Shown: in pieces, positions 28,597-48,979 of the stretch
Layout of the letters: every line of letters begins with the position of its first letter
Numbering within the stretch: the stretch's first letter is position 1
Assembly (NCBI GenBank): GCA_001799995.1
Contig: MGUK01000097.1
Coordinates: 1 to 64,000 of the forward strand
Direction: 5' to 3'
DNA length: 64,000 nucleotides
Source: Elusimicrobia bacterium GWF2_62_30
GTDB taxonomy: Bacteria; Elusimicrobiota; Elusimicrobia; Elusimicrobiales; UBA9959
Position numbers and translations under genes: made by a program
The notes under the pieces: model-generated
What the model saw: only the letters and a program-made list of their open reading frames with translations
Told to the model about the DNA's origin: nothing
Database searches by the model: none

Positions 28597-30105
28597 TCAA
28601 AGCAGAACGGCCAGCAGGAAGGCGGCGCAGAGCATGCAGCAGGCGTAGATGAACAGATCGCCGTTGCGCACATAAGCGCTCTGCTGCGCCCGCTCGTCTA
28701 TTACCACCTCGGCCTCGAGCACGCCCACAGCGTTAAGCTCCAGCCTTTTATTCACCCGCCCGTAAGGATCAATAGAGGCCGAGATACCGTTATTGGCCGC
28801 GCGCAGCACCGGGCGGCGGGTCTCTACGGCCCTGAAAATATTGGCCACCAGGTGCTGGGCGGGCGCCGCGGTGTCCAGGTACCAGCCGTCGTTGGTGATG
28901 TTCACGAAGAGCTGCGCGTCGCGCGCGGCGTCGTAGCGGAAAAGGTAAGGGAAGATGGATTCGTAACAGATGACGGGCGCCACCTTGAGGCCTTTTATGT
29001 TCATGAACGGCTGCTTCAGCCCGCCCGGGTCGAATTCGCCCAGCGCCGCCACCGGCTCTATGAACTTGCCGAGCAAGCCGCGCAAAGGGACATACTCGCC
29101 GAAAGGCACCAGCTCGCGCTTGTAGTAATCCCCGCCCTGCAGGCCGGTGGGCTCTATCAGGAACGCGGCCACCCGCCTGCCGTCGCCGCGGGAGACCGAC
29201 CCGACCAGGTGCTGCGCCCCCGACTCGCGCGCCAGCCTGGAGAGCCAGTCCCCGTAATGCTTGTCCTCTATCCAGCCCGGCAGCGCGTTCTCCGGCCAGA
29301 CCACCAGGTCCGGCTTGCCCGCGCCCTTAACCAGGCCTTCCAGCGTCGCTTCTATCTCCGCGGCGTAAACGGCATCCCACTTTTTGTAAAGGTCGATGGA
29401 CGGCTGCAGGAGCGCGGCCTTAAGGACCTTGCCCTCCGGAGCGGCGGCCGGGATCACGGATTTGCCGTAGAACCACAGCCCGCACACCACAAGAAAAGCC
29501 GGCGCCAGCGCAGCCGCGTTCCGCAGCGGTTTTACGCGGCGGTAGGCCAGCGCGCCTATCAGCGCCCCCGTGAAACAGACGGCCCAACTGAGCCCGTAAG
29601 GCCCGGTCAGGGACACCACCTGTATAAGCTCGGTATAGCGCCACTGCGTATAGCCCAGCAGGAACCAGGAGAACCAGATCCCCTTCAGGCTTAGCATGGC
29701 CTTGCCCCATTCCATCAGGGCCCAGCCGGAAGCGAACACGTAGGGGAAAGCGGCGCCGCCGCATTTTTTAAGGCAGAAGCCGAAGCCGCAGGCCAGGACG
29801 AACTCCAGGGCCATGAGCGCCGCCAAGAGCACCAGCCCGAGAGCGGACACCGCCGGCTCCACGCCGCCGGCGCGCATGGTGGGATAGATCCAGTACAGCA
29901 GCCCGAGGTAGAAAAGAAAGCCGGCGCCGAAGCCGCCGAACAGCGCGGCCTTGAGCGTTTTGGAATTGAGGATATGCCAGGCCAGCGGCGCCAGGGCGAA
30001 CCAGGCCAGCCAGCCCTGGTCGAACTTGGGATAACTCAGGATCAGCAGCGCCGCGGTCAGCAGCGGCACAAGCGCCGGGAGAATTTTCTTTGCCATCACT
30101 TGCAT
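28597..30105 (-). CDS. lnt: apolipoprotein N-acyltransferase
   Basis: Multiple TMs plus C-N hydrolase domain: LVVWPENALPGW, YYKRELVPFGEYVPLR, VICYESIFPYLFR, NITNDGWYLDTAAPAQH. Confidence 0.92.
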   Translation of the reverse strand: MQVMAKKILPALVPLLTAALLILSYPKFDQGWLAWFALAPLAWHILNSKTLKAALFGGFGAGFLFYLGLLYWIYPTMRAGGVEPAVSALGLVLLAALMALEFVLACGFGFCLKKCGGAAFPYVFASGWALMEWGKAMLSLKGIWFSWFLLGYTQWRYTELIQVVSLTGPYGLSWAVCFTGALIGALAYRRVKPLRNAAALAPAFLVVCGLWFYGKSVIPAAAPEGKVLKAALLQPSIDLYKKWDAVYAAEIEATLEGLVKGAGKPDLVVWPENALPGWIEDKHYGDWLSRLARESGAQHLVGSVSRGDGRRVAAFLIEPTGLQGGDYYKRELVPFGEYVPLRGLLGKFIEPVAALGEFDPGGLKQPFMNIKGLKVAPVICYESIFPYLFRYDAARDAQLFVNITNDGWYLDTAAPAQHLVANIFRAVETRRPVLRAANNGISASIDPYGRVNKRLELNAVGVLEAEVVIDERAQQSAYVRNGDLFIYACCMLCAAFLLAVLL

Positions 30106-30114
30106 AGCCGACTA

Positions 30115-30256
30115 TTGGAGGGAAGGGCCGCCTGTGGCCTCAGCAAACCCGTTGCAGGAAGGGGGCCCCGCCATAATTTCCGAAAGGCGGGGGGAACCCA
30201 CGTAAGGGGTTCCTCTTCCGGGTTTGCAGAGGCCACAGGCGGTCCGTCCCGAACCC
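30115..30256 (+). repeat. dispersed cloverleaf-like intergenic element, family 1, copy A
   Basis: Closing stem CCGCCTGTGGCCTC-A-GCAAACCCG (30128-30151) with CGGGTTTGC-A-GAGGCCACAGGCGG (30219-30242); internal hairpins CCCCGCC/GGCGGGG and GGAACCC-ACGTAA-G-GGGTTCC. Homologous to 46693-46833 inverted. Confidence 0.85.
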
Positions 30257-30282: not shown

Positions 30283-32907
30283 CTACACCGCGCCGTGGCA
30301 CTTCTTGTATTTCTTCCCGGAACCGCAGGGACAGGGGTCGTTGCGCCCCACCTTGGCGGCCAAAGGCCTGGGGGCCTGCTTCGGCTCCTCCTGCCTGGCC
30401 CGCTGCGGCGGCTGCTCAGGCTCCCGGCCCGGCTCGGCGGCCGCGGGGCGCGCCACTGGGCGCGGCGGCAGCTGCACGCGGAAAACGTATTCCACCATCT
30501 GGTCGCGCACGCGCGCCAGCATCGTCTCGAACAGCGCGTAGGACTCCTTCTGGTACTCTATCAGCGGGTCCTTCTGGCCGTAGGCGCGCAGGCCCACGCC
30601 CTTCTTGAGGTGGTCCAGGTCGTACAGGTGGTTCTTCCAGATATGGTCCATGATCTGCAGGAGCAGGATGCGCTGCAGTTCGGTGAAATCCACGTTGCGC
30701 TCGGTAAAATCCTTCACCCGCCCGTCGTAGGCGGCGTCCACGCGCTTGAACACCTCTTCCTCGAGCACGGGCCGTATCAGGCCGTGCAGCTCGTCGGCGG
30801 TGTAGGCCAGGTCGAAGCCGAAGGTCTTTTTAAGATAGACGTTGAGCACTTCCATGTTCCACAGGGAAGCCGGCTGCTCCGCCGGGGCGTTCAGGTCCAG
30901 CTGTTCCATCACCGACTCGCGGATCATCTTCTTGATACGGTCCACCACTTCGGCGCCGTCCAGGATGATATTGCGCAGCTCGTAGATTGCCATGCGCTGC
31001 TTGTTCATCACATTGTCGTAATCCAGCAGCTGCTTGCGGGCGTCGAAGTTCATGCCTTCCACGCGCTTCTGGGCGCCTTCTATCTGGCGGCTGACCAGTG
31101 CGGATTCGATCACCTCGCCCTCTTCCATGCCCAGCTTTTCCATGATGGCGGAAATGCGCTCGCTGCCGAACAGGCGCATCAGTTCGTCTTCGAGCGACAC
31201 GTAAAAAACCGAAGAGCCGGGGTCGCCCTGGCGCGCGCAGCGGCCGCGCAGCTGGTTGTCGATACGGCGGCTCTCGTGCCGCTCGGTGCCCATCACGCAC
31301 AGGCCGCCGGCGCCGTTGACGTATTCCTGCTCGCCGGGCTCGGCGGGGTTGCCGCCCAGCACGATGTCCGTGCCGCGGCCGGCCATATTGGTGGCGATGG
31401 TGACCTGCCCCTTGCGGCCGGCCTGCGAGATGATCTGCGCTTCCATCTCGTGATATTTGGCGTTCAGCACCTGGTGCGGGATGCCCTTCACGCGCAGCAT
31501 CGTGGCCAGCTTCTCGGATTTTTCTATCGAGCGGGTGCCGACCAGCATGGGCTGGCCTTTGCGCCAGCGCTCTTCTATTTCCATCACGATGGCGTTGTTC
31601 TTTTCGCGCTCGGTGCGGTAGATGCGGTCGGGGGAATCCCTGCGCACCAGCGGCCGGTTCGGCGGGATCTCCACCACTTCCAGCTTATAGATCTCCCAGA
31701 ACTCGTCCGACTCGGTCATGGCCGTGCCGGTCATGCCGGAAAGCTTGTTGTAGAGCTTAAAGTAGTTCTGGAACGTGATCGTGGCGAGGGTCTGGTTCTC
31801 CTCTTTGATCCGCATGTTCTCTTTGGCCTCGATGGCCTGGTGCAGCCCGTCGGACCAGCGGCGCCCCGGCATCAGGCGGCCGGTGAACTCGTCGACGATG
31901 ATGATCTCGCCATCCTTGACCACGTACTCCACGTCCTTGCGGAACAGATGGTAGGCGCGCAGGCCCTGCGTAAGGTGGTGCGCCCACTCGGAGCTGACGT
32001 CGTCGTAGATGTTGCCCACGCCCAGGATCTTCTCGGCCTTGTGCACGCCCTCTTCGGTCATCGTCGCGGTGTGGCTCTTCTCGTCGATGATGGCGTCGTA
32101 GCCCTTGCCCAGGTCCACCTCGTCGCGCTTGGCCTCTATCTCTTCCTTCTCGGTGATAAAGCGCGGGGTGAGTAGCGGGATCACGCGGTTGACCAGGTAA
32201 TACTTGTCGGTGGATTCCTCGGCGGGGCCGGAGATGATGAGCGGCGTGCGGGCCTCGTCCACCAGGATGGAGTCCACTTCGTCGACCACGGCGAAATTGC
32301 GCTCGCGCATCACGCGCTCGGACTTGTCCATCACCATGTTGTCGCGCAGGTAGTCGAACCCGACTTCGTTATTGGTGATATAGGTGATGTCGCGGTTGTA
32401 CATCACGCGGCGGTCCTCGTTCTTCATGTCGTGCTGGATGAAGCCGACGGTGAGGCCGAGGAATTCGTGCACGGGCCCCATCCAGAGGCTGTCGCGCTTG
32501 GCCAGGTAGTCGTTGACGGTCACCACGTGCACGCCGTGGCCGGTGAGGGCGTTAAGATAGGCGGGCAGGGTGGAGACCAGGGTCTTGCCCTCGCCGGTGC
32601 GCATCTCGGCTATCTTACCGCGGTGCAGCACCAGGCCGCCGATGAGCTGCACGTCGTAATGGCGCATCTTCAGCACGCGCTTGGACGCTTCGCGCACGCA
32701 GGCGAAGGCCTCGGGCAGGATATCGTCGAGGCTCTCGCCTTTGGCGAGCCGCTCTTTGAACTCGGGCGTTTTCGCTTTGAGCTGCTCGTCGCTGAACTTT
32801 GAAATTTCTTCTTCGAGCGCGTTTATCCGGTCGACCACGGGCTGCACGGTCTTCAGGGCGCGCTCGCTCTTGGAGCCGATGAGGGATTCAACGAGTTTTT
32901 TCAGCAT
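30283..32907 (-). CDS. secA: preprotein translocase subunit SecA
   Basis: [58 protein letters not shown]-terminal [14 protein letters not shown]. Confidence 0.97.
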
Positions 32908-33003
32908 ATGGCTATATTTAACCACTTTTAAACGCGTTTATAAATGGGGGGGCGCTTCTTGAACGGGATTTTGCTCCGGAATGGCCGCGGCCGGGTCCGG
33001 CGG

Positions 33004-42324: not shown

Positions 42325-42456
42325 CGCGGACTGCCACGGGGACCGGACCGCAAACCGCGCTCGGCACACCGTGCCTCGCTCATCCTCCGGCCTCGGCGCT
42401 ATGCAAGCCTCGGCCTACGGAAGGGTTTGCTAACCCGGTCCCCGCGTCAGTCCGCG
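42325..42456 (+). repeat. dispersed structured intergenic element, family 2, copy C
   Basis: Closing arms CGCGGACTG..CGGGGACCGG..GCAAACC and GGTTTGC..CCGGTCCCCG..CAGTCCGCG; interior GGCACACCGTGCC hairpin and GGCCTCGGCGCTATGCAAGCCTCGGCC shared with copy D. Confidence 0.75.
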
Positions 42457-42483: not shown

Positions 42484-44391
42484 TCAGAGCTTAAAATCGT
42501 CAGCGTACTGGCGGTGCCACAGCTCCAGCATCAGCAGCGCCCACAGCTTGTAGCCGTGGTCGCGCTTGCCGCCCTGGTGCTCGTCCCAGAGCCGGTACAA
42601 CCCCTCGCTCTTGAAATAGCCGCGGCCAAGCGCCTTTTTCGAAAGACAGGCCGCCGCCCAGTATTCCTTCAGCTCGCCGCGGAACCATTGTCCCAGCGGC
42701 ACGCCAAAGCCCATCTTGCCGCGGCCGTAGATCTCCGGCGGCAGCATGTTCCGGAACGTTTCCTTCAAGAGCCACTTGGTGCCGCCCAGGCCTTTAAGCT
42801 TCAGGTTCCCCGGCAGCCTGAAAGCGAACTCCAGCACTTTATGGTCCAGGAAAGGCGAGCGCGTCTCCAGGGAGTTGGCCATCGAGGCGATGTCCATCTT
42901 GGTCATCAGGCCCTCGGGCAGGTACGTGTGCAGGTCGCAGTAGGCCAGCCGGTTTAGCAGGTCCTCGCCGGCGGTAGCCTCGAAAGTTTTGGCGAGGTAG
43001 CGCCCGGCGTAATTCTTCTGCGGGCCCAGCAGGGAGATGAACTCATTGCTGTACAGCCCGTCCAGGTCGCCCGGCGAGAAGAAGGACATGGCTGAAAGAT
43101 ATTTTTCCGCCAGGCCGCCCATCAGCGACAGTTTCAGGAATTTCTCCAGCCGCCAGAAGAAGCCGAACGGGGCCGCCTTCGGCAGGTCGCGGATCCCGCG
43201 CAGGGCCGCGGACTTCAGCCAGGCCGGCGCGCCGGAGACCAGGGCTTCGGTCTTCATGGCCGCGTAGCGCAGGTAGCCGCCGAAGGCCTCGTCGCCCCCG
43301 TCGCCGTTGAGGGCCACCGTCACGTCCCGGCGGGTTTCGCGCGAGACGAAATACGAAGGCAGCGCGCTGGGGTCGGCGTAGGGCTCGCCGTAATTGCGGG
43401 CCAGCCGCTCCAGCTCGTCGGCCATCTTGGCCTCCACCGTGAATTCCGTGTGCTTCGTGCCGTACATCCGCGCCACCTGGCGCGCGTAGCCCAGCTCGGA
43501 GAACTTCTCTTCCTTGAAACCGATGGAAAAAGTCTTTACGGGCTTATCCGAATGCCGCGCCATCAGCGCGGTCACAATGGAGGAATCTATGCCGCCGGAC
43601 AGGAAGGCCCCGAGCGGCACGTCGGAGACCAGCCGTATGCGCACCGCCTCGGACAGCTCGAAGCTGAGCCTCTCCTTCAGTTCCGGCAGCGGCACATCGT
43701 CCAGCTTCTTCTCACCGAGCGGCAGGTCCCAGTATTTTTCCGTCCGGGCGCGGCCGTCCTCGAACACCAGCACGGAGGCGGGCTCAAGCTTGTTCACGCC
43801 CTTGAAAACGCTCAGCGGGCTGGGAATATACTGCAGCGTGAGGAAAGCGTCTATCGCGGCGGGGTTCAGCTCGCGCGGGATGTCCCTGGCGGCCAGGAGA
43901 GCGCGCAGCTCGGAGGCGAAGGTGAGGCCGTAAGGCGTAAGCGCGTAGAACAGCGGCTTCTTTCCCAGGCGGTCGCGCGCCAGCACCAGCCGCTTGCGCC
44001 GTATATCCCAGATGGCGATGGCGAACATGCCGCGCAGGTGCCTGGGGAACTCCGTGCCGTATTCCTCGTAGAGGTGCACGATGGTCTCGGTGTCGGACTT
44101 CGTGACGAACTTGTGACCCTTAATGAGGAGCTCGGCGCGCAGGTCCTGGAAATTATAGATCTCGCCGTTGAACACGAGCCAGACGGAGCCGTCCTCGTTC
44201 GAGATAGGCTGGTTCCCGGTGGAGAGGTCGATGATGGAGAGGCGGCGCATGGCCAGGCCGGCGGTCTCGCGGGTGTAGTAGCCCTCGTCGTCCGGCCCGC
44301 GGTGGACCAGCAGGTCGTTCATGGCCTTCAGGTCCTCGCGCGTGACGTGGACCCCGGAGCCGTAATTATAGATGCCGCAGATTCCGCACAT
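42484..44391 (-). CDS. asnB: asparagine synthase (glutamine-hydrolysing)
   Basis: MCGICGIYNYGSG, LVHRGPDDEGYY, FNGEIYNFQDLR, LGAFLSGGIDSSIVTALMARHS. Confidence 0.95.
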   Translation of the reverse strand: MCGICGIYNYGSGVHVTREDLKAMNDLLVHRGPDDEGYYTRETAGLAMRRLSIIDLSTGNQPISNEDGSVWLVFNGEIYNFQDLRAELLIKGHKFVTKSDTETIVHLYEEYGTEFPRHLRGMFAIAIWDIRRKRLVLARDRLGKKPLFYALTPYGLTFASELRALLAARDIPRELNPAAIDAFLTLQYIPSPLSVFKGVNKLEPASVLVFEDGRARTEKYWDLPLGEKKLDDVPLPELKERLSFELSEAVRIRLVSDVPLGAFLSGGIDSSIVTALMARHSDKPVKTFSIGFKEEKFSELGYARQVARMYGTKHTEFTVEAKMADELERLARNYGEPYADPSALPSYFVSRETRRDVTVALNGDGGDEAFGGYLRYAAMKTEALVSGAPAWLKSAALRGIRDLPKAAPFGFFWRLEKFLKLSLMGGLAEKYLSAMSFFSPGDLDGLYSNEFISLLGPQKNYAGRYLAKTFEATAGEDLLNRLAYCDLHTYLPEGLMTKMDIASMANSLETRSPFLDHKVLEFAFRLPGNLKLKGLGGTKWLLKETFRNMLPPEIYGRGKMGFGVPLGQWFRGELKEYWAAACLSKKALGRGYFKSEGLYRLWDEHQGGKRDHGYKLWALLMLELWHRQYADDFKL

Positions 44392-44495: not shown

Positions 44496-45659
44496 TCATT
44501 CCCCTTCGTAAATTTTAAGCACTTCGTCGGCCACGCGCGCCATGGAATACTTTTCCACGGCCGTCTTGCGGGCCTGCTCGCCCATCTTGCCCGCTATGCT
44601 GCGCTCCGCTATATAGCGCCGCAGGCAGGCCTTGATCTCGGCGGGGTTGAGCGGGTCGAAAAGGCAGCCGCTCTCACCTTCGACCACGGCGTCCTTCGCC
44701 CCGTCCACGCGGCTGGCCATGATGGCCACGCCGCAGGCCATGGCTTCCAGCATGGAATTAGACATCCCCTCGGTAAGCGACGGCAGCACGAAGACGTCGG
44801 CCGCGCGGTAATACGGCAGCAGGTCGCCCTTGGGGCCGGCCAGCAGCACGCTGGCCCCCACGCCAAGCTTTTCCACCGCGTTCTTGAGGCTGGCCTCTTC
44901 GGGCCCGGAGCCCACGATGACCAGGCGCATCTTGGGCTTGGTCATCTCCTCTGCCAGCACTTCGGCCCAGAGCTCGACGAACTCGCGCAGCCTTTTCTCG
45001 CGCACCAGCCGCCCGACGGACAGGAAGACGATGTCGTTCTCCAGGCCCACGGCGGCTTTCGCGCTTATCTTTTCGTGGTAGAGCGGCGGCGTATAGCGGC
45101 CGGTGTCCACGCCGTTGCGGAACAGCCGGGGGCGCAGGCCGGTGAACTCCCTGCTGTTCTTCAGCCAGTTATAGGCCTCGGAGCTGAGCACCAGCACTTC
45201 AGGATGGAAGACGGAGAAGAACTTGAGCTTGAGGCGGCCCAGGAAGGTCTTCCCCGAAAGGGAGATCTCGTCGAGACCCTGGCCGCGGCCGAGCTTGACC
45301 ACCGTTCTTTTGCCGGTGAACCTGCCGGCCAGCAGCGCCGCCACGGCGGGCGAGGAGGCGAGGTGCACGTGCGCCACGTCGTACTCCGCGGCGTGCGCGA
45401 GCATATAGAAGAAAACCTTGAACATGAAGACCAGGGAATCGAGCGCGCCGGAGCCGAAGACCCCGAAGCGTTCCACTTTCACTCCGGAGATGACCTCCCG
45501 CGCGGGCAGCCCGTCCACGCGCCTGGTTATCACGGAGACCTTCACCCCCCTGTTAACGAGGGCCTTGGACAGCTCGAAGGCCTGCTTCTCCGCGCCGCCC
45601 AGCACGGGGTAGAAGGTCTGCCCCACCATCAGCACGGACTTTATTCTGCTTTCGGTCAT
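44496..45659 (-). CDS. family 4 glycosyltransferase
   Basis: QTFYPVLGGAEKQAFELSKALVNRG, VFLSVGRLVREKRL, VIVGSGPEEASLKNAVEKLGV, ADVFVLPSLTEGMSNSMLEAMACG; start at ATG 45659 with ATGA overlap. Confidence 0.92.
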   Translation of the reverse strand: MTESRIKSVLMVGQTFYPVLGGAEKQAFELSKALVNRGVKVSVITRRVDGLPAREVISGVKVERFGVFGSGALDSLVFMFKVFFYMLAHAAEYDVAHVHLASSPAVAALLAGRFTGKRTVVKLGRGQGLDEISLSGKTFLGRLKLKFFSVFHPEVLVLSSEAYNWLKNSREFTGLRPRLFRNGVDTGRYTPPLYHEKISAKAAVGLENDIVFLSVGRLVREKRLREFVELWAEVLAEEMTKPKMRLVIVGSGPEEASLKNAVEKLGVGASVLLAGPKGDLLPYYRAADVFVLPSLTEGMSNSMLEAMACGVAIMASRVDGAKDAVVEGESGCLFDPLNPAEIKACLRRYIAERSIAGKMGEQARKTAVEKYSMARVADEVLKIYEGE

Positions 45660-46648
45660 TTCTTTTCCCCGCCCCCGGACGACAGGCCGCCCCAGACCTT
45701 GCCGAGGGAATAGCCCATCTGATAAACGAAGAAGACGCCCAGGACCGTAGTGACGGCGAAAGCGATCACGTGCACGTAGGAGGCGTAGGCCAGCCCGGTG
45801 TTCTCGGGTATGCCCCAGGTAAAAGCCACTTTCTGTATGGCGAACTCGATGGCGCCGAAATACCCCGGCATCCCCGGCACCGAAGCGGCCAGCGCGCCGG
45901 TGAAGGCCAGCACCATGCATTTGAAAGCGTCCATCACGCCGCCGATGCCGAAGGCCAGGCCGAGCCAGAAATAGTTGAGGGCGGACATACCCCACTGCAG
46001 CGCCGCGAACAGCACGATGAGGACGCCGCTCCTGAAAGAATGAAAGCCTTTAACGCCCATCGCGAGCTTCTCCAGTACGTTCCTGAAGAGCGGGAAGCGC
46101 ACGAAGAGCCCGGAGAGCCAGCGGTGCGACACCAGCTCGTCGGCGAAGACCAGCACGGCCATGGCGCCGCCGAGCCCGGCGCACATGCCCCAGAGCCAGC
46201 CGCCGTAATTCATCAGCCCGCCGCCTATGCCGCCCAGGCGCACCGCCACCGCGAACAGGAAGAACATCACAATGAGGTCCACCGCGCGCTCCACCAGTAT
46301 GGTGGCGAAAACCGTTATCATCGGGATGCCGAGGAGCTTCGCGCCGAAGGTCCCGCGGGCCACTTCCCCGAGCCGCATCGGCAGGATATTGTTGAGCCCC
46401 AGGCCCACCGCCTGCAGGCGGAAAGCGTCCCAGAGCCTCACCGGCGCGGAAGGGTTGAGCAGCAGGCGCCACCGCGCGCCGCGCAGCAGCAGCTCGACCA
46501 CGGCCGTTATCACCGCGGGGATTATATACCAGGCGTTGACGGAGGAATAAGCCTGCATCAGCGAGGCGAAGTCCACTTTCCTGAAAGCCATGAAAAGCAG
46601 TCCCGCCCCGATGATAAACCCCGCGATAATGGATATCTTTGCTTTCAT
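45656..46648 (-). CDS. lysylphosphatidylglycerol synthase transmembrane-region family protein (AglD/UPF0104-like)
   Basis: Multi-TM; LRGARWRLLLNPSAPVRLWDAFRLQAVGLGLNNILPMRLGEVARGTFGAK; VPGMPGYFGAIEFA. Confidence 0.85.
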   Translation of the reverse strand: MKAKISIIAGFIIGAGLLFMAFRKVDFASLMQAYSSVNAWYIIPAVITAVVELLLRGARWRLLLNPSAPVRLWDAFRLQAVGLGLNNILPMRLGEVARGTFGAKLLGIPMITVFATILVERAVDLIVMFFLFAVAVRLGGIGGGLMNYGGWLWGMCAGLGGAMAVLVFADELVSHRWLSGLFVRFPLFRNVLEKLAMGVKGFHSFRSGVLIVLFAALQWGMSALNYFWLGLAFGIGGVMDAFKCMVLAFTGALAASVPGMPGYFGAIEFAIQKVAFTWGIPENTGLAYASYVHVIAFAVTTVLGVFFVYQMGYSLGKVWGGLSSGGGEKK

Positions 46649-46692: not shown

Positions 46693-46833
46693 GGTTCGGG
46701 CCGACCCGCCCGGGACCTTTGCAAACCCGGAAGAGGGAACCCTTACGTGGTTCCCCCCCGCCTTTGGAAAATTACGGCGGGGCCCCCCTTCTGCAACGGG
46801 TTTGCTAAGGTCCCGGGCGGTCCGTCCCTCCAA
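46693..46833 (-). repeat. dispersed cloverleaf-like intergenic element, family 1, copy B
   Basis: Stem CCGCCCGGGACCTT-T-GCAAACCCG (46706-46729) with CGGGTTTGC-T-AAGGTCCCGGGCGG (46797-46820); interior matches copy A in reverse complement. Confidence 0.85.
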
Positions 46834-46846
46834 ATCTATCCAAGTA

Positions 46847-46985
46847 CCGGCGGACGGCGCGTGGAGAGGGTTAGCAAAACCTTCACGGAGGCCGAGGCTT
46901 GCGTAAGCGCCGAGGCCGAGTGATGAGGGCGAGCACGGTGTGCGAGACCCGCGTTTTGATAACCCTCTCCACGCGACGGACGCCG
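46847..46985 (-). repeat. dispersed structured intergenic element, family 2, copy D
   Basis: Stem CGCGTGGAGAGGGTTA-G-CAAAAC (46858-46880) with GTTTTG-A-TAACCCTCTCCACGCG (46953-46975); interior matches copy C in reverse complement. Confidence 0.75.
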
Positions 46986-47032
46986 AGCGCGTTTTGTCGG
47001 CCCGGTCCCCGTGATTGCTGCCCCGCCTCGTG

Positions 47033-48979
47033 CTACGCGGCGTCGATGCTTTTGAGGAACGCGTCCTCGCCGGCCGGGCGCCCCAGGAACCGCTCCACCT
47101 GCCCCGCCTCGTCGTAACTGCGCCCCGGCGCCAGGATCAGCTCCCGGTACTTCGCCCCGGTCGCCGGGTTCATCACCCCGGAAGCCTCGAAGGCGCTGAA
47201 AAGGTCCGCCGCTATAACTTCGGACCAGAGATAGCTGTAATAGCCCGCCTCATAGCCGCCCATCAGGTGGCCGAAGCTCGCCTGCGGGTGCGTCCCCGGG
47301 CTCATCGGGATAAGCGAGATCTTCTTCATCAGCTTTTCGTAAAGCCTGGTAGTGTCCACCTTGCCGCGCGCCGTATGGTAGCGCATATCCAGCAGGCTGA
47401 AGAAGATCTGGCGCAGGTAGACCAGGCCGGAATCCATGTTCTTCGCCGAGATCAGCTTGCCTATCAGCTTTTCCGGCAGCTTTTCCGCCGGGTTCCTGAA
47501 ATGGCCGGAGATGCGCCGCAGCACCTCGGGGGAATAGGCCCAGTTCTCCAGCATCTTGGAGGGGACCTCCACAAAGTCGCGCGACACGCTGGTGCCCGAG
47601 AACTTGCCGTACTTCGCCCTGGTGAAGATGTTGTGCGTGACATGCCCGAATTCGTGGAACAGCGTCACCACGTCGTCGAACTGCAGCAGGGCCGGCGAAC
47701 CCTCCGAAGGCGGCGGGAAGTTCCCCACTATCGCGGCGGCGGGCAGCTCGTAGGCGCCGCTTTCCAGCTCGCGGCCGTGGCGCAGGCCGAAGCAGGCCGC
47801 ATGCTTGTACTTGCCGTCGCGCGGGAACAGGTCGAAATAGAAATAGGCCGCTATGGCGCCGTCCGCGTTCTTCACCTCGTAGGCGCGCACGTCCTTGTGC
47901 CAGACCGGCAGCTGCGCCGGTTCGAAGCGCGCCCCGAACACTTCGCCGAAAACACCGAACATGCCTTTCACCACGGTCTCGAGCGGGAAATACTCCTTTA
48001 TCTTCTCGTGGTCTATGGAGTACTTGGTCTTCTTGAGCTGGTTGTTGTAATAGCGCCATTCCCAGGCGTTAAGCGGCTTGTCTTCCCCGCCTTTGAGCTT
48101 GAGCCGCGCCCGCAGTTCCTTGCGGCCTTTCTTCTTGAGCTTGGCCCAGGTCCGGTCCATGAAGGAGATCACGGTTTCGCTGTTCTTGGCCATGCGGTCG
48201 GCCAGCACGTAATCGGCGAAAGAAGCGTAGCCCAGGAGCTTGCTGATCTTGCGGCGCAGGACGATAGCCTTCTCCATCAGTTCCACGTTGGCCGTCGAGC
48301 AGCGGTTGTTGAACAGGGCCTCGTATTTGCGGCGGGCCTCGCCGTTCTCGGCGTTGTCCATGAAAGGGAAATAATCCGGGTAGTTCATCGTCACCTGGTA
48401 TTTCCCGCCCTCGGTCTTGTTGAGCCTGGCCTTGAAATCCTCGGGCACTCCCTTTAAGTCGTCCCCGGAAACCTCCAGGACGTCCTTAACTTCGCGCAGG
48501 TTCTTGGAAAAATCCAGTTCCAGGCCGATGAGTTCCTTCATCAGCTTTTTAACTTTGTTCTTCTTGCGCGGCTCCAGCCCGAGGCCGTTGCGTTTGAAAT
48601 CAAGCAGCGTTTTTTCCAGCAGCCGGGCCTCCACGGTCCCCAGCTTCTCGCCTTTGGCCGCGTATTCATTAAGCACGGCAAAAACGTCCTCGCGGGTGAA
48701 GAGGTCCACGGAGTACTGGCTTATCTTCAGCTCAAGCTCCTGGCCGGCCTTGCGAAGGTCGGCATTGTCGGAGACATAGGCCAGGAAGACGGGGATATTC
48801 ACGGCCTCGCCGAAGCCGCTCACGGCCGCCTCGAAAGCCAGCATGGTGTTCTTGAAGCTGCGCTGGGGACCCGGGATATTAACTATATCCTTGAGTTTTT
48901 CCTCAAGGTCCTTTATCAGGGTTTCGGAAAGGGCTTTGACCAGTTCCGGGGTGTAAGAAAAATCGGGAGCTTTTGACAT
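47033..48979 (-). CDS. M3 family oligoendopeptidase
   Basis: TLFHEFGHVTHNIFTRAKYG zinc motif; YYSYLWSEVIAADLFSAFE; GRPAGEDAFLKSI C-terminus. Confidence 0.93.
   Translation of the reverse strand: MSKAPDFSYTPELVKALSETLIKDLEEKLKDIVNIPGPQRSFKNTMLAFEAAVSGFGEAVNIPVFLAYVSDNADLRKAGQELELKISQYSVDLFTREDVFAVLNEYAAKGEKLGTVEARLLEKTLLDFKRNGLGLEPRKKNKVKKLMKELIGLELDFSKNLREVKDVLEVSGDDLKGVPEDFKARLNKTEGGKYQVTMNYPDYFPFMDNAENGEARRKYEALFNNRCSTANVELMEKAIVLRRKISKLLGYASFADYVLADRMAKNSETVISFMDRTWAKLKKKGRKELRARLKLKGGEDKPLNAWEWRYYNNQLKKTKYSIDHEKIKEYFPLETVVKGMFGVFGEVFGARFEPAQLPVWHKDVRAYEVKNADGAIAAYFYFDLFPRDGKYKHAACFGLRHGRELESGAYELPAAAIVGNFPPPSEGSPALLQFDDVVTLFHEFGHVTHNIFTRAKYGKFSGTSVSRDFVEVPSKMLENWAYSPEVLRRISGHFRNPAEKLPEKLIGKLISAKNMDSGLVYLRQIFFSLLDMRYHTARGKVDTTRLYEKLMKKISLIPMSPGTHPQASFGHLMGGYEAGYYSYLWSEVIAADLFSAFEASGVMNPATGAKYRELILAPGRSYDEAGQVERFLGRPAGEDAFLKSIDAA

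Follow-up and report, generated by a model that had tools for sequence, protein, structure and literature searches.

Intergenic elements with covarying stems in Elusimicrobiota: probable mosaic DNA palindromes with exchangeable cores

Introduction

In the window (the 64,000-nt stretch of DNA analysed here, part of contig 97 of the 2.9-Mb draft genome of Elusimicrobia bacterium GWF2_62_30), two intergenic copies of an element of about 140 bp differ in the long stem that closes them, and each nevertheless pairs with itself. A sequence-only reading of the window had proposed a mobile or processed structured element. The locus raises the question of whether the compensatory changes reflect selection on an RNA fold or a process acting on DNA palindromes.

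Results

Structure of the two window copies

Copy A (30115–30256, + strand) lies between secA (30283–32925, − strand), whose stop codon precedes it, and the apolipoprotein N-acyltransferase gene lnt (28597–30105, − strand), whose start comes after it, and is antisense to both. Copy B (46693–46833, − strand) lies between an M3 peptidase gene upstream (47033–48979, − strand) and an LPG_synthase_TM family gene downstream (45656–46648, − strand), and is sense to both, so that the two copies do differ in orientation relative to their flanking minus-strand genes. Re-reading the letters, we found that the copies match end to end and that all four outer-stem differences are compensated (CCGCCTGTGGCCTC with GAGGCCACAGGCGG in A, CCGCCCGGGACCTT with AAGGTCCCGGGCGG in B). 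The pairing of the outer stem was as proposed, but its length was not: instead of 14 bp it spans about 22 bp (in copy A, 5′ arm 30120–30141 and 3′ arm 30229–30250, + strand), is essentially perfect over alignment columns 14–27, and is variable yet paired in every copy. Both copies carry the A-A mismatch, where most other copies have G-A. In copy A, the inner stem consists of GCAAACCCG (30143–30151, +) paired with CGGGTTTGC (30219–30227, +), and is followed by a conserved unpaired bulge, TTGCA (30152–30156, +), which reads TTGCG, TTGGG, or TAGCG in relatives. The hairpin CCCCGCC/GGCGGGG (P2; 30166–30192, +) has the loop ATAATTTCCGAAA, and a further hairpin (P3; 30193–30213, +) ends in a GNRA-type tip, C-GTAA-G, with GCAA or GGGA in relatives. 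The stem of P3 shifts register between copies (GGAACCC/GGGTTCC vs GGGAACC/GGTTCCC), in agreement with the length changes reported earlier. The description "cloverleaf-like" is apt for the shape, a three-way junction, but not for any resemblance to tRNA, of which there is none. The predicted fold energies were −94.9 kcal/mol for copy A (z = −8.5) and −88.9 kcal/mol for copy B (z = −5.6); none of 200 shuffles folded as well as either copy, and both strands folded far better than the shuffles. Pairing of the UUGCR bulge with the CGCAA loop in a pseudoknot was also considered; it suits one subclass but is poor in the others, and the GNRA-type tip was preferred.

Copy number, distribution, and covariation

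The element, designated type 1, occurs in 12 copies in the genome, so the two window copies are not the only ones: ten others are 82–92% identical to copy A along almost their whole length, and a further one matches only its core. DNA searches found matches, usually confined to the core, in 28 of the 32 genomes of the genus (27 of the 31 other species), and in none of 29 genomes outside it. A covariance model built from 20 copies extended the reach to one more genus of the family and, within the class, to a single genome from another family. These distant copies retain the junction, a GNRA-like tip, and the bulge, which reads TAGCGGA instead of TTGCRGA; their scores of about 60 bits are close to the 56 bits reached by reverse strands of true copies, and their assignment therefore rests on inspection rather than on the E-value. 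Pattern matches among named records were without exception from Elusimicrobia MAGs, and no match was found among plasmid records. In Rfam, no family matched anywhere in the window at the gathering threshold, and at a low threshold only hairpin families appeared, far below the gathering threshold. Every genome used is a draft assembly, with several elements at contig ends. In the related MAG CG08_59_10, type 1 copies (L030, L031, and L034) contain an extra hairpin-like stretch of ~47 bp inside P3. Outside the window, contig C91 carries tandem units of ~350 bp (L010, 174–523 and 701–1046), each with a tiny gene that would encode MKEFEIIEEANAPELGWGIGGGVF; the pair looks like a duplicated precursor of a small modified (RiPP-like) peptide.

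The compensatory signal persisted when the alignment was enlarged. In the type 1 alignment (A2), 93.6% of cells pair and 26 of the 51 pairs show two-sided changes, and the covariation score was 0.356, compared with 0.113 ± 0.010 after shuffling and at most 0.111 in the slid control; none of 500 shuffles equalled it, these controls being shuffling and sliding without a tree model. The variation is nearly all in the long stem, the P2 stem is invariant, and one-sided (G-U) variants are scarce relative to two-sided ones. The covariation of type 2 elements (see below) was equally strong. The strand-specific conservation of the loops (GTAA/GCAA/GGGA tips and the UUGCR bulge) suggests recognition of the folded single strand itself, whether RNA or DNA.

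Type 2 elements and locus-specific arms

The sequence adjoining copy B recurs next to many type 1 copies and is a separate hairpin, here called type 2. It is the commoner core, with about 45 copies in the genome, often beside type 1, and two in the window: one directly upstream of copy B (46847–46985, − strand) and another (42326–42456, + strand) after the stop codon of an asparagine synthase gene (42484–44391, − strand). By eye, the left-end fragment of a further type 2 element was read at 46982–47010 (− strand). The outer arms of type 2 elements differ by locus yet are self-complementary, even where the cores are nearly identical: the outer portions of the arms of the same copy bind with a mean of −21.3 kcal/mol, as against −11.7 kcal/mol for those from different copies. 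At C95:8953–9078 in the genome of the window, the terminal arms are of type 1 and the core between them is of type 2. Type 1 is one core type within a larger repeat family. In another species of the genus (G018), the ends GGAGGGG...CGACTnnnCATCTCGCGG occur 32 times, compared with once for the reversed control, and mostly flank type-2-like cores in one orientation, some with small nested hairpins.

Several further arrangements were observed. Small hairpins such as GTGGAGCGAAGCGACAATGCTCC are nested in element cores of G018 and a close species, G026 (L326, L328, L331, L332, and L338), forming a further mosaic layer. Close inverted pairs of type 2 elements, with very large predicted hairpins, occur at L100 1343–1626 (C95:8795–9078) and on contigs C22, C44, C94, and C5; a 391-nt stretch at C95 has a predicted fold of about −244 kcal/mol. 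Behind secA in other species (L110, L111, L114, and L116), there is a third core variant that shares the apical hairpins of type 2 but has another inner stem (GCCTTCTCC...GCGAAGGC).

Genomic context and orientation

None of the 53 type 1 copies examined lies inside a gene. For 44 of them, a simple codon-usage gene caller trained on the window gave a gene on either side; 39 of these 44 lie between tandem genes, 22 in the sense and 17 in the antisense orientation. Most copies begin 0–40 nt past the upstream gene's stop codon, except where a type 2 element intervenes. Since both orientations occur, a strand-specific riboswitch or sRNA is unlikely, and a fixed-strand RNA of this kind was rejected as the main reading; the earlier argument against a simple cis-riboswitch is supported, as is the description of a structured element that is scattered between genes and probably mobile. 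No fixed placement upstream of related genes, as of a cis-riboswitch or 5′ leader, was found. After the elements read by eye, there is no T run of the kind that follows the hairpin of an intrinsic terminator. The idea that the locus-specific arms are captured terminators was discarded because T runs are lacking and the arms of orthologues change in pairs (L199/L250 and L191/L121).

In sister species, the secA gap often contains a type-2-like element with different, compensated arms, so that copy A sits at a site that holds type-2-like elements elsewhere. The gap corresponding to copy B, where readable in sister species, is short or filled by unrelated sequence and is nearly closed in most; on this basis, the copy B block seems to have been acquired in one lineage only.

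Core exchange between close species

Some species pairs of the genus are similar enough to be compared base by base. Exchange was examined in one such pair, G018 and G026, which are 91–93% identical and represented by draft assemblies; the closest pair, G002 and G010, has too few copies for the purpose. Nineteen orthologous type 2 loci were aligned, and 16 were cleanly comparable, with arms retained and locus-specific. The rows left out of the tally were L254/L240 (a 19-kb locus with several cores), L256/L292 where another core was picked (the other alignment gave 94% in the same orientation), and L193/L216 and L264/L242 (no pattern-matched core in G026). The core was conserved (93–100% identity) at five of the 16 loci and different (68–84%) at 11, and at four of these 11 it was also inverted, the flanks of the 11 loci being mostly 88–98% identical. 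The replaced cores usually have a paralogue of 94–100% identity in their own genome, with the exception of one G026 core, for which the value was only 76%. Median core identity was 90% within G018 versus 80% between G018 and G026, and the outer arms showed the reverse, with a median of 79% between orthologues versus 57% between paralogues. In two elements, L193/L216 and the second one of L203/L214, the difference is limited to the P3 tip, where both strands change as one block.

Of five type 1 sites of G018 that were traced in G026, three carry a type-2-like core inside the same ends, and at one of these three (L282/L300) the flanks are clearly unchanged. A fourth site has a short, unrelated hairpin in its place. 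The fifth is empty: its two genes overlap by ATGA, and the direction of insertion is inferred from this overlap. The target duplication at this single empty site is at most AT, and TA ends are absent from the aligned copies.

Discussion

We observed directly that the elements are intergenic, orientation-blind, and present in multiple copies across the genus, that some orthologous sites have the element in one species and lack it in another, and that the arms of a locus stay in place when its core is replaced and inverted. The reading we favour, with somewhat better than even confidence, is that they are mosaic palindromic DNA repeats of about 100–185 bp, located behind stop codons, with a self-complementary stem and an exchangeable three-way-junction core. 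Arm complementarity would probably be kept by template switching between the inverted arms or by hairpin-templated repair, either of which would also invert the core; work on inverted repeats has shown that template switching makes the arms alike and inverts the spacer (PMC8604942) and that it preserves hairpins (PMC8794818). Cores would probably be exchanged by ectopic gene conversion among copies, with hairpin cleavage or fork stalling as a possible trigger, and new sites would be founded by rare insertion via some machinery. SbcCD as the break-maker stays speculation because the search for SbcD gave weak SbcD-like matches only, none of them over the cut-off. As RNA, the giant post-stop hairpin would probably shield the upstream message or divide polycistronic mRNAs in either orientation; such effects on mRNA are plausible. 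A more daring extension, which we hold as doubtful, is that the folded core itself triggers a break or strand exchange at other palindromes and converts them to its own type. If so, the cores would act as a hairpin-based "core drive", spreading by conversion, not transposition, and the repeats would come to resemble covarying RNAs.

The main alternatives differ in what they take the paired changes and the swapped cores to be. The strong covariation, the loops and GNRA-type tip shared by two genera and by a second family, and the placement after stop codons would all suit a structured non-coding RNA, trans-acting or a 3′UTR regulator, under selection on its fold with ordinary compensatory evolution. 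However, sense and antisense copies are equally common, each genome holds tens of copies, cores are replaced and inverted at orthologous loci, and G-U intermediates are few, which makes such an RNA family improbable. For the same reasons of orientation and core replacement, and because the type 2 outer arms are locus-specific and self-complementary even with near-identical cores, the compensatory changes do not support a processed RNA; homogenisation of the arms at the DNA level explains double changes with few G-U intermediates no less well than selection on RNA does. A transposase-driven MITE (DDE or IS200/IS605-like, single-strand) with the ends GGAGGGG and CGACTnnnCATCTCGCGG, in which the swaps are independent insertions at favoured sites, would account for the conserved ends, the presence or absence of elements at L166/L295 and L280/L294, and the almost closed copy B gap in most sister species. 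It is nonetheless unlikely, because L282/L300, L203/L214, and other loci retain ends and flanks and differ in the core alone, no clear target duplication was seen, and the two Y1 transposases of the genome adjoin other palindromes.

Swapping of whole cores between paired arms in either orientation also recalls an integron-like tyrosine recombinase that exchanges cassettes site-specifically on folded single strands, but the sites are single and dispersed, and the replacement of the P3 tip alone at L193/L216 is better explained by conversion than by a fixed crossover point, so that we regard this as very improbable. Hardly credible is an assembly artefact of repeats in metagenome assemblies: despite the draft state of every genome and the elements at contig ends, the same family is seen in independent genomes, mis-joins cannot yield locus-specific self-complementary arms, the swapped loci share gene neighbours on both sides, and near-identical cores occur at other loci of the same species pair.

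Among known systems, the mosaic palindromes proposed here resemble REP/BIME and REPIN-RAYT elements in being dispersed, intergenic, often post-stop, mosaic, often in inverted pairs, and present in tens of copies per genome. REPs are defined as short (20–40 bp) hairpins tagged by GTAG or CGTC (PMC3733652), whereas the Elusimicrobiota elements are far larger (copies of about 140 bp) and have three-way-junction cores, conserved insides, variable outer arms, and no consistent GTAG/CGTC tag at their ends; many type 2 copies do have CGTC near the 3′ end. Mobilisation by a RAYT was rejected since neither Y1 gene of the genome is flanked by these elements; both lie beside other palindromes. These RAYT-like genes (L102 on contig C94 and L101 on C70) are flanked, one by GGGGTCAGACCC palindromes and the other by TTAAGTATACTGTCCC-type repeats, which are two further repeat families in the genome. 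As short, non-autonomous intergenic palindromes in many copies, the elements fit the general outline of bacterial MITEs of the ERIC/NEMIS type, and they share with ERIC, NEMIS/Correia, and YPAL (PMC2229807) a size of about 100–200 bp and stable RNA hairpins, but show no TA ends in the aligned copies and no clear target duplication, and have exchangeable cores in locus-specific arms. Quasi-palindrome template switching (PMC8794818, PMC8604942) offers the same arm homogenisation, spacer inversion, and multi-base compensated changes, but as point events within one locus, whereas in the present family other loci also supply replacement cores. Integron attC sites, which function as folded single strands, are structured palindromes located behind genes. 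The Elusimicrobiota sites are likewise structured, palindromic, and behind genes, but are dispersed, single, and beside housekeeping genes such as secA. With neither the RAYT nor the tag of REPs and no clear target duplication, the family is set apart within the dispersed palindromic repeats.

In the open-access literature, we found no report of intergenic repeats in Elusimicrobia, and for structured RNA in this group only work on RNA decay enzymes; absence there is no proof of novelty. The family is a large and apparently undescribed one of structured repeats in Elusimicrobiota. Much of a very strong covariation signal can come from DNA-level exchange and arm homogenisation, which calls for caution when RNAs are to be discovered by covariation. 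Because it is found at many orthologous loci of close species, the family also provides a natural system for measuring template switching, the inversion of palindromes, and ectopic exchange of cores in bacteria.
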